A DNA stretch of 64,000 bases, from the NCBI RefSeq assembly GCF_900115245.1, contig NZ_FOVT01000004.1, positions 124,001-188,000 on the forward strand, in the 5' to 3' direction. Position numbers and translations under genes: made by a program. The stretch is from Mesorhizobium sp. NFR06. GTDB taxonomy: Bacteria; Pseudomonadota; Alphaproteobacteria; Rhizobiales; Rhizobiaceae. Below the pieces are notes generated by a model. It ran no database searches. It was not told where the DNA came from and was given only the letters and a program-made list of their open reading frames with translations. Below are positions 5,396-47,308 of this stretch, in pieces. The stretch's first letter is position 1. Each line of letters begins with the position of its first letter.

Positions 5396-6163
5396 ATGGG
5401 CGGAAGGCTGGCGGGCAAGGTCGCGATCATTTCGGGTGGCGCGACGGGCATGGGCGGGGCGGCTTCCGAGCTGTTTGCCGCCGAAGGCGCCAAGGTGGCG
5501 ATCATCGACCGCAACGGCGAGGCGGCCGGTAAGACGGCAGCAGCGATCCGGGCGAGGGGCCATGTAGCCGAGCATTTCGTGGCCGACGTTTCGGACGAGG
5601 CGCAGGTCGAAGCGGCGGTGAAGGCGGCGACCGCAAAGCTCGGCCCGGTCACCGTGCTGTTCAACCACGCCGGCACCATCGTCATAAAACCTTTCCTGGA
5701 GACGACCTTGCAGGAATGGGACTGGCTGCACGCCGTCAACGTGCGCTCGATGTTTCTGATGACGCGCGCGGTGCTGCCCGGCATGATTGCCGCCGGCGGC
5801 GGCTCGATCGTCTGCACCTCGTCGATCTCGGCGGTGGCGGCGACGCCGAACGAAGTGCTCTATGACACCACCAAGGGCGCCTGCCACATGTTCGCGCGCG
5901 CCATCGCGGTGGAATTCCGCGACCGCAACATCCGCTGCAACGCCGTGTGTCCCGGCTTCATCCGCACGCCGCACGGGCTGCGCGAGGTGGCCGATCTCGG
6001 CAAGCTCGGCGTCGATGTCTCGGACGCGGCGATGGCCGCGCAGCAGGGCCGCATCGGCGAGCCGGAGGAGGTGGCCAAGGCGGCGCTGTTCCTGGCGAGC
6101 GACGAATCCAGCTTCGTCAACGGCGCGCATCTGTTTGTCGATAACGGCTTTACGGCGGCGTGA
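5396..6163 (+). CDS. Short-chain dehydrogenase/reductase
   Basis: A 255-residue classical SDR. It shows the cofactor glycine motif SGGATGMGG (residues ~13-21), the acidic residue after the second strand (IIDR, favouring NAD), the NHAG variant of NNAG (~residue 89), catalytic Ser in CTSSIS (~143) and the YDTTK catalytic Tyr/Lys (~157-161). PGFIRTPHG and the C-terminal [13 protein letters not shown] are also typical. It is a soluble oxidoreductase of an alcohol or keto substrate, which cannot be named. GGAGG lies 7 nt before ATG 5396. It stands alone, convergent with the ABC transporter operon. Confidence 0.9.
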
Positions 6164-40930: not shown

Positions 40931-41251
40931 GGTCTATTGCTGGATCTCAAGAGCCCCCGGGCGGCTGTCTGCTTCATCACGGCCGCCGACCCGCTTCGGC
41001 ACAGCCGGATTGTGCCGAAGAGGGAACGGCCACGATAGCCGTCAAGGACATGGTAAGCGCTTCATGAACGTCTGACTTGCCAGCGCATTTTCGTTTACTT
41101 CCCGTTCACCCTCAGATTATCCGAAAGCCAGCAAAAACAACGGATTAACCGCCCGTTAAGCATCTCTCGGCGGCTGCCCGCCGCCTCTGGCCACATTCCT
41201 GCAACGCCTTATCCGAGCGGCACGAGGCCGGAGGCAGTGGGGGCGGAAGGT
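40931..41251. other. Intergenic region with a perfect 10-bp hairpin
   Basis: CTTCGGCACA (40994-41003) and TGTGCCGAAG (41011-41020) form a perfect stem around GCCGGAT. It could end the transglutaminase-like transcript although no T-run follows. The AT-rich stretch at 41075-41160 is probably the promoter of the next gene. No coding sequence seen. Confidence 0.5.
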
Positions 41252-42613
41252 ATGCGGTGGTTCAGAGGTGTCGTTCGTGGGGTGGACGGCTTTGTCCGGA
41301 ATCGCGAAGGCAACTTCGCGGTCCTGTTCGGGGCTGCCGCATCGGTCCTCGCGCTGGGGGTGGGATTCGCGGTCAATATCTCGCAGCTCTACAATGCGAG
41401 GTCGAGCCTGCAGGGCGTCGTCGACGCCGCCGTGACCTCGACGGCCCGCGATCTCACCCTCGGCGTCATCGAGGAGGCCGATGCCAACAAAATGGTCCAG
41501 GTGTTCCTCGAGGCCAACAGTACCGCCGGGATTCTGCAAGCCGATCAGATCGTTCTTGACAAGCTTACCGTCGACAGGTCGGCCAAAACCGTGCAGGCGG
41601 ATGCACATGTCGATGTCGGCCTTTATTTCCCGCTGTTCAGCACCAGCAGCATGCGACGCGTGACCGCCTCGACCACTGCGCTTTATTCCGACAAGACGGT
41701 CGAGGTGGCGATGATGCTCGACGTCACCGGTTCGATGGCAGGCCAGAAGATAAAGGACCTGCGGACTGCGGCGGGCAACGCGGTCGATTCGTTCCTCACC
41801 GGCCAGAACGCCTCCAACCCGCGGGTGCGGGTGGCGATCGTGCCTTATGCCAATTCGGTCAATGCAGGCTCGCTTGCCGCAAGCACCGTGTTCGTCGAGA
41901 CCAAGGCCAGCGAGCGCAAGCAGGCGCCGGGCAATGACGACCCGAAATATGTCTCGGCATCGACGCGGCCGGACAACTGCGCCACCGAGCGCAAGGGCGC
42001 CTACCAATATTCCGATGCCGGCCCGAATGTCAGCATGGTCAACCGGGACCTCTATTTGTCCGACTTTGCCAGGTCGAGCCACACACGAGCCTGCCCCGTC
42101 GCAACAATACAGCCGCTGACCACAGATGCGTCAGCTCTGAACAATGTCATCAAGGACCTTGAGGCCTCCGGCGGCACCGCAGGCCATATCGGCGTGCAAT
42201 GGGCATGGTACATGCTTTCGGAAAACTGGGGCAGCGTCATGAAGGCCTCGCAGCGGCCGGCCAAAATGGATCCCAAGAAGGTGGCGAAATACGTGATCCT
42301 GATGACCGACGGCGAATTCAACCTGTCCTATTTCGACGCCAACGATCCGAATCAGGTCTATGACAATGCCGGCAAGGTACAGACGCGGACCGCGGCAACG
42401 ACGCTCTGCGCGGCAATGCGCGACAACGGCATAGAGATCTTCACCATCGGCTTTGCCCTCACCGAGAAGAACGCCAAGTCGACGCTGCAGTCTTGGGCCA
42501 GTCCCGATACAGGCAACAGCAGGCATTTCTACCAGGCGGCCAACGGCACCGAGCTCGACAAGGCCTTCCAGGATATCGTGCTCACCATCGACAACCTCAC
42601 GGTGACCAGGTAG
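41252..42613 (+). CDS. TadE/TadG-like pilus-associated protein with von Willebrand A domain
   Basis: A 453-residue membrane-anchored protein. The N-terminal segment FVRNREGNFAVLFGAAASVLALGVGFAVN is a TadE/G-type helix preceded by the conserved EGNFAVLF. Residues ~40-145 are periplasmic; a von Willebrand A domain starts at about 150 with the metal site MMLDVTGSM (DxTxS) and has KYVILMTDGEFN later. ATG 41252 has GGAAGG upstream. TadG-like proteins accompany Flp/Tad adhesive pili, but no other tad gene is adjacent, so it is an orphan. A terminator follows at 42648-42681. Confidence 0.88.
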   Translation: MRWFRGVVRGVDGFVRNREGNFAVLFGAAASVLALGVGFAVNISQLYNARSSLQGVVDAAVTSTARDLTLGVIEEADANKMVQVFLEANSTAGILQADQIVLDKLTVDRSAKTVQADAHVDVGLYFPLFSTSSMRRVTASTTALYSDKTVEVAMMLDVTGSMAGQKIKDLRTAAGNAVDSFLTGQNASNPRVRVAIVPYANSVNAGSLAASTVFVETKASERKQAPGNDDPKYVSASTRPDNCATERKGAYQYSDAGPNVSMVNRDLYLSDFARSSHTRACPVATIQPLTTDASALNNVIKDLEASGGTAGHIGVQWAWYMLSENWGSVMKASQRPAKMDPKKVAKYVILMTDGEFNLSYFDANDPNQVYDNAGKVQTRTAATTLCAAMRDNGIEIFTIGFALTEKNAKSTLQSWASPDTGNSRHFYQAANGTELDKAFQDIVLTIDNLTVTR

Positions 42614-42647
42614 CGGTCGCCGACTGAAAGCCGACACCAAAAAGGAA

Positions 42648-42681
42648 AAGGCCGCCGCTTCTTCACGAAGCCGGCGGCCTT
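42648..42681. terminator. Bidirectional rho-independent terminator
   Basis: AAGGCCGCCG and CGGCGGCCTT form a 10-bp stem; inner CTTC/GAAG can extend it. Read on the minus strand it is followed by TTCCTTTTTGG, a good T-run, so it can end the small minus-strand unit at 42750-42821 as well as the tadG-like transcript. Confidence 0.8.
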
Positions 42682-42712
42682 CCGTGTTTCCGTCCATGAC
42701 GCGGCTCCTGGC

Positions 42713-42731
42713 GGCAGCCCTTCGGGCTACC
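42713..42731 (-). other. Stable hairpin after the 23-codon ORF
   Basis: GGTAGCCC and GGGCTGCC (minus strand) pair over 8 bp with one G-U around GAA. It lies 18 bp after the ORF stop and has no T-run, so it is more likely an RNA structure than a terminator. Confidence 0.6.
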
Positions 42732-42749
42732 TGCCGCGCGTCTCGCGCC

Positions 42750-42821
42750 TTAACGGGAAGACTGCTTCCCGGAAGTGCAATCCGCTGAGCTCACGTTCTG
42801 GAAAACGAAATCACTCGACAT
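42750..42821 (-). CDS. 23-residue peptide with a perfect anti-SD match
   Basis: A 24-codon ORF (including stop) on the minus strand. Its ribosome site (42823-42836) is AAAGGAGGTGATCC, a 14-nt perfect complement of the 3' end of 16S rRNA, with AGGAGG 7 nt from ATG 42821. The peptide is Ser-rich and neutral, starting MSSDFVFQNVSSADC, with one Cys and no membrane segment. A promoter-like pair lies at 42858-42886, a hairpin at 42713-42731 and a terminator at 42648-42681, so it is a complete ~200-nt unit. I recognise no family. It may be a real micropeptide, a dual-function RNA or a ribosome-sequestering RNA. Confidence 0.55.
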   Translation of the reverse strand: MSSDFVFQNVSSADCTSGKQSSR

Positions 42822-42857
42822 CGGATCACCTCCTTTCGGTTTGTTGAACACTGCCTC

Positions 42858-42886
42858 ATGATGGGGTGGCGATCCGCAAATGACAA
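42858..42886 (-). promoter_or_regulatory. Putative promoter of the 23-codon ORF unit
   Basis: Minus-strand TTGTCA (42881-42886), a 17-bp spacer and CATCAT (42858-42863). The leader would be about 30 nt before the ATG, most of it the strong ribosome site. Confidence 0.4.
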
Positions 42887-43028: not shown

Positions 43029-44297
43029 ATGAACGCCGCCGACAGGGCCGCCCGGATCGTGCGGACGATCATCGAGACGCTGCAGCCGGGTTTCGCGGTC
43101 AAGCTGTGGACCGGCGAGCGTATCGGTCCCGCCAACGGCCCGGTGCTTACCATCAACGATCAGGACATCGTCTGGCAGCTGGTGCGCCGTCCGACCTTCT
43201 CGACGCTGGTCGAGATGTGGATTTCCAAGACCGTCGACATCGAGGACGGGACGCTGTTCGACTTCTACGCGCTGCCCTCGCAGGGCAAGCTCAGGACGAA
43301 GCTCAAATCCTTGCCGAAACTGGCGATCCTGCGCGACCTGCCGGCGGTGCTGTTGTCGCGAAAACAGATGACGGCGCGCAGCGACCTTTCCGGTCGCAAC
43401 CCTTATGTCAGCGGTTCGAGCCAGGAAGCGATCCAGCATCACTACGACATATCGAACGCCTTCTACCGCCTCTTCCTCGACGAGCGCATGGTCTATAGCT
43501 GCGGCTACTTCAAGGATTTCGCCAATGGCATCGACCAGGCGCAATTCGACAAGCTCGACCACATCTGCCGCAAGCTCAGGCTGAAGCCCGGCGAAAGGCT
43601 GCTCGACATCGGCTGCGGCTGGGGCGCGATGCTCATCCATGCGGCGAAGAACTACGGTGTCGTCGGCCACGGCGTGTCGCTGTCGCAAGCTCAGACCGAG
43701 CTCGCCCGCGAGCGCATTCGCGCCGAGGGGCTGCAGGACCGCATCACCATCGAGATAAAGTCCTATGCCGAACTCTCCGGCTCCTTCGACAAGATCTCGT
43801 CGATCGGCATGTTCGAGCATCTGGGGCTCGCCAACCACGCGGCCTATTTTTCGGCCGTCCACCGCCTGCTGAAGCCCGGCGGCATCTATTTGCACCATGC
43901 CATCACCAGGCGCAGCAAGGGCGACGCCAGGAAGACCTTGCGCAAGGGACCGGAGTACAAAGCGCTGATCAAATACATCTTTCCCGGCGGCGAGCTCGAC
44001 ACGATCGGCATGACGCTGGGCAATCTCGAGGCGCACGGCTTCCTGGTCTATGACGTCGAGAATCTGCGCGAGCACTACGGGCGCACCTGTCGGCTGTGGG
44101 CCGAGCGTCTGCACGCGCGTTTCGACGAGGCGATCGCCGAGGTGGGCGAGGCCAAGGCGCGGCTGTGGCTGCTCTATCTCACGGGCTGCTCGATCACCTT
44201 CGAGCGCGCGTCGGCGCAGATTTTCCAGACTGTCGCCACCAAACGCGCGCGCGGCCCGAGCGGCCTGCCGCTGACCCGGGCGGATCTGTATCGATAG
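43029..44297 (+). CDS. cfa: Cyclopropane-fatty-acyl-phospholipid synthase family protein
   Basis: A 422-residue SAM-dependent methyltransferase that adds a methylene across double bonds of membrane phospholipid acyl chains. The N-terminal lipid-binding part (~1-130) is followed by NAFYRLFLDERMVYSCGYF and the SAM motif GERLLDIGCGWGAMLIHAAK (~residues 195-214). HGVSLSQAQTELARERI, SSIGMFEHLGLANHAAYF and YIFPGGELDTIG match the family, including the Glu/His bicarbonate-site region. ATG 43029 has GGAGG 5 nt upstream; ATG 43011 is a weaker alternative. It is a single gene; many rhizobia have two or more paralogues. Confidence 0.92.
   Translation: MNAADRAARIVRTIIETLQPGFAVKLWTGERIGPANGPVLTINDQDIVWQLVRRPTFSTLVEMWISKTVDIEDGTLFDFYALPSQGKLRTKLKSLPKLAILRDLPAVLLSRKQMTARSDLSGRNPYVSGSSQEAIQHHYDISNAFYRLFLDERMVYSCGYFKDFANGIDQAQFDKLDHICRKLRLKPGERLLDIGCGWGAMLIHAAKNYGVVGHGVSLSQAQTELARERIRAEGLQDRITIEIKSYAELSGSFDKISSIGMFEHLGLANHAAYFSAVHRLLKPGGIYLHHAITRRSKGDARKTLRKGPEYKALIKYIFPGGELDTIGMTLGNLEAHGFLVYDVENLREHYGRTCRLWAERLHARFDEAIAEVGEAKARLWLLYLTGCSITFERASAQIFQTVATKRARGPSGLPLTRADLYR

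Positions 44298-45048: not shown

Positions 45049-45049
<1 letters not shown>
44300..45049 (-). CDS. MOSC-domain protein
   Basis: A 249-residue protein with an N-terminal MOSC beta-barrel (SQLWRYPASSLAGERLDAIS, GDRLFGLVDTASGEIARPDR) and a C-terminal MOSC core (PDPRRFRPNIVVDM, WIGRKLAVGDLLLTVSEPCRRCGFTIIAQ). The conserved Cys lies in SEPCRRCGF. The family carries sulfur or molybdenum cofactor and includes N-hydroxylated-compound reductases (mARC/YcbX). The start ATG overlaps the acs stop by one base (TGATG), so it is translated after acs on the same mRNA. The reaction is not assigned. Confidence 0.9.
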
Positions 45050-47004
<1,955 letters not shown>

Positions 47005-47308
47005 TCCTTGCTTTCCTCCCAAACCGTTCCGCCGGCTTGACGACCGGCGGTATCGCGGCGAAGCGGCCGCGAATTCGCCGGCATTATTAACAGTTCCGCC
47101 GCGACGGCAACATTAGACGTTGGATTCGCGTGGCGGGATGACGCAGGGCAGGAGCGAAATGCTGTCAGCACTCGCGGCTTGTCGCTGCTAACCAACTGTT
47201 TTGGCGGCGAAAATTCCGACTGCGCCAGCAGAAATCAATAGACAGTTAAGCAACCCGGGCGCAGAATCCACGTTGGGAGGAAAGGAGAACCGACCAGGGA
47301 ACAGGGAA

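Follow-up and report, generated by a model that had tools for sequence, protein, structure and literature searches.

On the minus strand of a 64,000-nucleotide stretch of the Mesorhizobium sp. NFR06 genome (contig NZ_FOVT01000004.1, positions 124,001 to 188,000; hereafter the window), we found a small unit between a VWA/TadG-like gene and cfa that combines a promoter, a complement of the 16S rRNA 3' tail, a 23-codon ORF, a folded body and a terminator. The unit does exist, and its conservation goes well beyond chance. New are the breadth of its occurrence in the class, a short frame that is conserved while its peptide is unconstrained, and a 16S complement that changes in ways that preserve its pairing. 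Our best explanation, which we hold tentatively and at somewhat below even likelihood, is that of a structured RNA of a CC2171-related type that engages ribosomes via the 16S tail and for which being translated matters as an act in itself, as a decoy or a sensor. We infer from the sequence that the RNA would be transcribed in this strain, bind ribosomes, be translated and play such a role.

Layout, neighbours and distribution of the unit

The candidate promoter, obtained from a promoter scan and from related loci, consists of a − 35 box TTGTCA (CTTGTC) and a − 10 box CATCAT separated by 17 nt (42886-42858, minus strand). This promoter-like pair with 17-bp spacing had been pointed out in the initial annotation. 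It is weak when taken alone since it matches the consensus at only 9 of 12 positions and 2 such sites are found in 2.5 kb for 0.8 expected by chance; among 35 Mesorhizobium-type loci the boxes are in place, with CTTG kept in 34 and CATCAT in 26. Placing the start from the − 10 box predicts a transcript of about 212 nt (42851-42640, minus strand, as are the parts that follow).

The short leader TGTTCAACAAACC (42850-42838) carries a CAAC that is there in 24 of 30 and 32 of 38 loci unselected for CAAC. It is followed by GAAAGGAGGTGATCC (42837-42823), a 15-nt perfect complement of the 16S rRNA 3' tail forming an extended Shine-Dalgarno, and, after a gap of one nucleotide, by the start codon of the 23-codon ORF already annotated (42821-42750), which encodes MSSDFVFQNVSSADCTSGKQSSR and ends with TAA. 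Within this ORF lie the 5' strand of a long-range closing stem, from codon 3 (42814-42787), and a hairpin CGGGAAG-CAGT-CTTCCCG (42771-42754) that explains recurring EQP/KQS residues. A second hairpin with compensatory changes lies 3' of the stop codon (42735-42710), and the 3' strand of the closing stem (42707-42684) is directly ahead of the intrinsic terminator, a hairpin plus T run (42683-42640). The stable hairpin and T-rich terminator noticed initially are both present, with the second hairpin besides. Our simple terminator scan does not list the terminator of the unit, probably because of the stem and loop limits of the scan.

The VWA/TadG-like gene, assigned by a domain match, lies at 41237-42613 on the plus strand and is convergent with the RNA. 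On the other side, cfa (CMAS domain, plus strand) most likely starts at the ATG at 43029 behind GGGAGG, about 190 nt from the 16S-complement motif and close to the distance of about 200 bp first annotated. Adjoining cfa upstream and divergent from it, in the window and at several other same-genus loci, the RNA could be taken for the leader or attenuator of an adjacent gene or for an antisense control of cfa. We give this reading hardly any weight: what follows the RNA is not a co-transcribed downstream gene but the terminator and then the convergent VWA/TadG-like gene, and the neighbours change between clades.

A survey with a crude ORF caller, which includes some spurious frames, gave 479 flanking proteins in 349 clusters, of which the two largest are confined to one or two related groups; no class-wide neighbour is found among the 479. 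With its own terminator and no class-wide neighbour, the RNA is unlikely to have a cis role. Functions based on the neighbours (cfa, acs, tadG-like) were discarded as the context is not class-wide. A 12-member cluster across several types consists of AMP-binding enzymes; its member at one locus (L189) resembles acetyl-CoA synthetase, as does the window gene at 45049-47022 (minus strand), and the place of an AMP-binding enzyme beside the unit in several groups is perhaps the ancestral position.

By BLAST, the 281-nt region is found in 24 of 25 same-genus genomes (its own included) with no match in the same-genus genome G013, and short matches over the motif are found in six genomes of other families. 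A loss of the ORF from relatives that keep the surrounding genes, which the initial annotation had proposed to look for, was not seen: the 24 genomes keep the unit, and the ORF is intact where the motif was read. We also scanned genomes with a 20-nt pattern, AAAGGAGGTGATCCRRTGTC, allowing at most one mismatch and using the reversed pattern as control. The motif is present in 122 of 249 genomes of the order, in 57 of 289 genomes of the class (58 matches, one genome matching twice) and, in a sample of the phylum, in 29 of 51 alphaproteobacteria and 0 of 149 other members, while the reversed pattern has 0 matches in the order, class and phylum scans. A longer pattern, also demanding TCAAC and the G that precedes the 14-mer AAAGGAGGTGATCC of the complement, matches at least 119 stretches of named genomes; among the 80 matches listed, all names are ones that we take to be alphaproteobacterial (Mesorhizobium, Bradyrhizobium, Sphingomonas, Brevundimonas, Azospirillum, Salipiger and others).

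The motif is absent from the three sampled genomes of other genera of the same family (G362, G392 and G417) which, with the missing BLAST match in G013, gives the appearance of a clade-wise loss. One genome (G052) carries two units of different types (L180 and L308, MSHGSA... and MSHCH...), and the unit types can therefore be paralogues. On viral contigs, the bare 14-mer is found in at least 120 stretches (L001-L120); the bare motif is therefore not specific.

The 16S-tail complement and the frame that follows it

The 16S tail of two same-genus genomes reads GCGGCTGGATCACCTCCTTTCT / GCGGCTGGATCACCTCCTTTCTAAGGA, and all 15 nt of the complement pair perfectly with this tail, which was borrowed from these two genomes as the 16S end was not found in the window's own assembly. 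The perfect complement of 14 nt that had been annotated is borne out and actually extends to 15 nt, with the two halves GATCC and AAAGGAGG (the AGGAGG half). The 14-mer has a single occurrence in the window and 0 in 100 shuffles, and a 13-mer out of it has a single occurrence in the 6.16-Mb assembly. The duplex with the 16S tail (− 30.1 to − 30.3 kcal/mol) is the strongest in the window, followed by − 26.0 kcal/mol for the next unrelated site and − 22.3 kcal/mol for the best of 43 long ORFs.

An invariant G core is expected of any Shine-Dalgarno and the weight therefore rests on changes outside the core. The G preceding the 14-mer, which is outside the search pattern, is kept in 65 of 68 fetched loci. 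Substitutions within the 14-mer, tallied by hand from the class, phylum and order match tables for single mismatches only, are found in 40 genomes. In 33 of them the 16S pairing is kept as a G-U wobble through A>G or C>T (A1>G 7, A2>G 5, A3>G 1, A6>G 1, A11>G 9 and C14>T 10), while 7 break it (C14>G in four genomes, and A1>T, G4>A and T12>C in one each). Restricted to transitions, 33 changes preserve the pairing and 2 break it; counted once per site and family, the numbers are 28 and 2 (p about 4e-7 if both kinds are equally likely). A T>G in one same-genus genome (G003/L129), outside this tally, also breaks the pairing. These counts suggest that the 16S-complementary block evolves as a pairing.

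It is conceivable that mature ribosomes are not the main object of the complement and that it acts on the 16S 3' end while ribosomes mature or undergo quality control, where it would compete with Era or with 3'-end nucleases. The available text of PMC6943124 has Era binding the 3' end of the 16S precursor, and the pairing of the whole tail GGAUCACCUCCUUUC goes beyond the need of initiation. We nonetheless consider this role improbable, as the start codon and the short in-frame ORF would be left unexplained. Alternatively, the AAAGGAGGUGAUCC block may seed pairing with mRNAs or sRNAs that contain anti-Shine-Dalgarno-like CCUCC stretches, rather than with rRNA. Any CCUCC-bearing RNA could pair in this way, but the full 14-15 nt including GATCC are kept with pairing-preserving changes and are followed by an RTG start and an in-frame stop, and such a seed is accordingly very improbable.

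The position of the stop codon requires 320 nt of downstream sequence, which was at hand for 188 units, with 97 representatives less than 62 % alike. An in-frame stop after 14-36 codons is found in 96 of the 97 representatives, the remaining one having a later stop, compared to 31 and 25 of 97 for the other two frames and to 32.8 ± 5.1 (maximum 48) for shuffles. The larger sets have the short in-frame stop in 162 of 165 and 186 of 188 units. The start codon is ATG or GTG and twice TTG, with TG unchanged throughout the class and order match tables, in which the one mismatch could fall at any position. Of 188 units, 185 have a serine codon TCN as codon 2, and each of the four bases occurs at its third position, under a pattern that demanded TC; TC is found at codon 2 in 26 of 30 loci obtained without demanding it, the four others having ORFs of 39, 57, 26 and 18 codons. 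The set of 165 units was selected for at most one pattern mismatch and a TG start and de-duplicated on 76 nt; because of this selection the start codon and the TC are partly built into the set, and the stop codon is not. Three loci of the class (L156, L162 and L175, with 39, 57 and 18 codons), which are outside the set, have the extended Shine-Dalgarno and a start with no TC at codon 2 and may be ordinary genes or further variants.

We looked at the coding statistics of 115 unique ORFs by clade (Meso, MSS, MSHC, Sphingo, Brady and Rhodo, labels assigned by peptide pattern), skipping the first four codons and the clade/length groups with fewer than four unique ORFs. As descriptive ratios, since sequence pairs are not independent, pN/pS values range overall from 0.90 to 1.67 in the groups with variation: 0.90-1.14 in the five length groups of MSHC, 0.98-1.01 in MSS, 1.15 in Rhodo, 1.42 in Sphingo and 1.67 in Meso. 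The 5 unique ORFs of Bradyrhizobium have no variation within the compared part. Differences at the third codon position are the fewest of the three positions in Meso and Sphingo, and a small third-position excess is found only in the two largest MSHC groups (835 vs 751 and 746; 1179 vs 1022 and 1119). By pN/pS, no purifying selection on amino acids is found in any clade with variation.

These statistics bear on the highly translated micropeptide that the initial annotation had considered, that is, a gene whose product is a peptide of 14-36 aa made at a high rate. Selection on the start site and on a short ORF, as in micropeptide genes, is indeed seen here: the start site is strong, the short in-frame ORF is conserved and codon 2 recurs whether or not the pattern asked for it. 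However, the ratios above reveal no amino-acid constraint, the peptides of different clades look unrelated past Met-Ser and the window peptide has no match in Pfam or NCBIfam. We rejected the micropeptide gene on codon statistics and give it little credence. The apparent peptide conservation MSSD...EQPS was traced to RNA elements, namely the start-proximal stem strand and the GGAGCAGCC-type hairpin, with the hairpin accounting for the EQP residues.

The usual yardstick for a short ORF is conservation of its peptide; in this unit the frame is conserved across the class and the peptide is not. Because the short frame is conserved without peptide constraint, the simplest reading is that the RNA would be translated with the peptide sequence being free. 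At two loci, L240 (Azospirillum tabaci, motif at 5473-5504, minus strand) and L312, an ORF of 57-58 codons lies behind the same extended Shine-Dalgarno and resembles a small secreted protein, with a hydrophobic N-terminal stretch followed by A-DC; the ORFs of the other units read do not look like this.

Fold of the RNA and its possible partners

The 212-nt RNA folds with − 102.3 kcal/mol (z − 6.45) and 0 of 200 shuffles are as stable. A terminator candidate is present in 154 of 165 units; dropping 9 in which it is nearer than 120 nt, 145 units were used for ensemble folds (8 shuffles per unit) and for strand swapping. Whole transcripts beat shuffles in every group, with a mean z of − 4.6 to − 6.5 to which the terminator contributes.

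Two sets, holding 20 (A1) and 25 (A2) of 45 Mesorhizobium/MSS units with 4 common to both, were compared for paired positions and double changes. On the 20 Rhizobiaceae units of A1, the window fold has 91.0 % of cells paired compared to 42.2-49.6 % for slid controls, a test that favours the structure because the structure was derived from one A1 sequence. Double changes number 49 compared to 16.0 ± 3.1 in shuffles, 0 of 500 shuffles reaching this value; they are mainly in the hairpins and the terminator, and only 2 pairs of the closing stem have any. On the 25 divergent MSS-type units of A2, the start-proximal stem and ORF hairpin are 89.3 % paired (vs 37.5-53.6 %) with 37 double changes compared to 15.9 ± 3.5; 35 of the 37 are in the ORF hairpin, and 2 of 4 pairs of the long-range stem have a double change, in one sequence each. 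RNAalifold on A2 finds only the ORF hairpin, the terminator hairpin and Shine-Dalgarno-local pairs. The GGAGCAGCC-type hairpin has compensatory changes across several families.

The closing stem pairs ORF positions of about + 3 to + 33 with the pre-terminator segment. Stem sequences differ entirely between groups and the main support for this stem therefore comes from swapping its strands: the own strands of a unit pair with a mean of − 17.2 to − 21.5 kcal/mol compared to − 11.0 to − 14.4 kcal/mol for strands swapped between clades. Individually, 77 of 145 units beat 95 % of swaps, with 1 of 6 for Bradyrhizobium and 6 of 22 for the group of other units.

The Shine-Dalgarno/start region is unpaired at 0.41-0.56 in the larger groups compared to 0.39-0.42 when the downstream part is shuffled. 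This is modestly above the control in Mesorhizobium (0.56 vs 0.42) and MSS (0.53 vs 0.41) and close to the control value in the Sphingomonas and mixed groups, while the region is more paired than the control in the Rhodobacter-like (0.17 vs 0.42) and Bradyrhizobium (0.24 vs 0.40) groups. The GGAGG core is unpaired at only 0.27-0.36 in the larger groups, a figure without shuffled control. The RNAalifold consensus of A1 differs from the single-sequence fold: the Shine-Dalgarno pairs with the ORF start through pairs that hardly vary, excluding the full closing stem, of which only part is kept. According to these models, accessibility of the Shine-Dalgarno would not be assured, which counts against our best reading.

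Self-sequestering of the Shine-Dalgarno, suggested by eye and by RNAalifold on A1, is doubtful as a general rule: the larger groups do not show it in their ensemble folds, and support of this kind comes only from the small Rhodobacter-like (5) and Bradyrhizobium (6) groups. At the Rhodobacter-like loci L190, L251, L259, L261 and L276, a CACCTCCTT-like or related stretch is found 3' of the ORF and the Shine-Dalgarno is predicted paired. This group possibly self-sequesters its Shine-Dalgarno.

The observations agree best with the other idea of the initial annotation, an RNA that serves to engage ribosomes: the 16S complement, the start and the in-frame stop are constrained across the class, and the peptide, loops and neighbours vary. 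The ribosome is the most probable partner because the constant part (16S complement, start and short frame) faces the ribosome and nearly all else varies. We hypothesize that the 5' end, common to all types, would pair with the whole single-stranded 16S tail and present the start codon, that it should recruit 30S subunits or ribosomes and that the ribosome would translate a short peptide unimportant in itself. Because the pairing ends 1 nt before the start and the stem begins at codon 3, full pairing, start decoding and the folded state should compete; by this reasoning, a duplex that comes this close to the start should be incompatible with P-site decoding. The RNA may hold or slowly release ribosomes and act as a decoy. 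It may also be that ribosome entry opens the closing stem, the folded or open state reporting free initiating ribosomes and acting as a sensor. A wider version, in which an RNA device across the alphaproteobacteria gauges or limits free initiating ribosomes by capturing the complete 16S 3' tail and the translation of a mini-ORF of free sequence switches its fold, is conceivable though doubtful. Against translation of the RNA, a section of PMC4117421 that does not name CC2171 makes the general statement that the intergenic ncRNAs of Caulobacter are untranslated by ribosome profiling.

The RNA may also be a translation-gated base-pairing sRNA that reaches mRNA targets via its loops or the 3' strand of its closing stem, translation merely opening or stabilising it. 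Since the 5' strand is in the ORF and the 3' strand past the stop, a ribosome would free the 3' strand; this alternative would also suit a stand-alone gene with a terminator and a hairpin kept by compensation over several families. We consider it rather unlikely: a common target other than the ribosome is implausible because the loops and the 3' strand vary by clade while the 16S complement is constant.

If engagement of ribosomes is the function, the RNA would be a general regulator at the level of translation in many species, an Rfam family listed simply as an sRNA would gain a suggested role, and sORFs that are translated but not conserved could be functional. If the wider device exists, it would be a case of a conserved ORF with an irrelevant peptide where translation is the signal, with no downstream gene.

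Comparison with CC2171 and other RNAs

The initial annotation recognised no described family in the unit. At curated cut-offs, Rfam has no match in the window. Without cut-off, CC2171 (RF01867) matches over the whole model at 42845-42649 (minus strand) with 32.6 bits and an E value of 5.4e-5, for a cut-off of 75. The statement holds with respect to the formal threshold and gives way with respect to the whole-model resemblance to CC2171 and to an RF01867 RNA in M. huakuii. In a sample of the class, CC2171 matches 26 of 142 genomes at E ≤ 0.001 with 5 above the cut-off and, among 14 named control genomes, matches only Caulobacter vibrioides. A cut-off scan of 12 loci has 2 passing, both of the Caulobacter/Hyphomicrobiales type (L243 with 91.2 bits and L194 with 76.4 bits), and the other 10 (Bradyrhizobium, Sphingomonas, Rhodobacter-like, Azospirillum, MSS and one other) below the cut-off.

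CC2171 reportedly originates from the tiling-array set of Landt et al. 2008. The window RNA is like CC2171 in the 5' consensus CAACAAUCGAAAGGAGGUGAUCCAGUGUC, with the 5' block CAACAA..GAAAGGAGGUGAUCC..UGUC present, in a start-proximal long-range stem closing just ahead of the terminator, made of other sequence and kept in part by the RNAalifold consensus, and in the 3' intrinsic terminator. It differs in its score far below the cut-off, and CC2171 is filed as an sRNA, for which the available text mentions neither a conserved short frame nor the 16S complement. The unit is probably a divergent relative of this known sRNA family, below its formal threshold. The CIN or 'cuckoo' RNAs of Rhodobacter carry CCUCC-type loops; no CCUCC is found in the 212-nt RNA.

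In the same genus, MH_s33 of M. huakuii is annotated as RF01867 with an RNA-seq product of 215 nt (PMC5596092), compared to 212 nt predicted for the window RNA. As listed in the available text, which gives no ORF or function, MH_s33 is on the same strand as both its neighbours whereas the window RNA is opposite to both; because of this misfit in orientation, we count it as suggestive. Within the text available from the open-licence literature on CC2171, the motif, small proteins, sRNAs and ribosome-engaging RNAs, the ORF or the 16S complement is not described.

An extended Shine-Dalgarno may do no more than make initiation strong, as it can in S. aureus, where the helix is likewise extended on the side proximal to the start codon (PMC13009471). 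The S. aureus cases in the available text differ in being ordinary protein genes with two extra base pairs and no conserved RNA body. In S. aureus SprF1, a purine-rich 5' end binds ribosomes and lowers initiation (PMC8938821). SprF1 is a toxin antisense RNA of a Firmicute with no short ORF mentioned in the available text, and no homology is suggested. What SprF1 and other ribosome-associated RNAs would have in common with the window RNA is a ribosome-binding purine-rich 5' end, and by analogy the window RNA may work alike.
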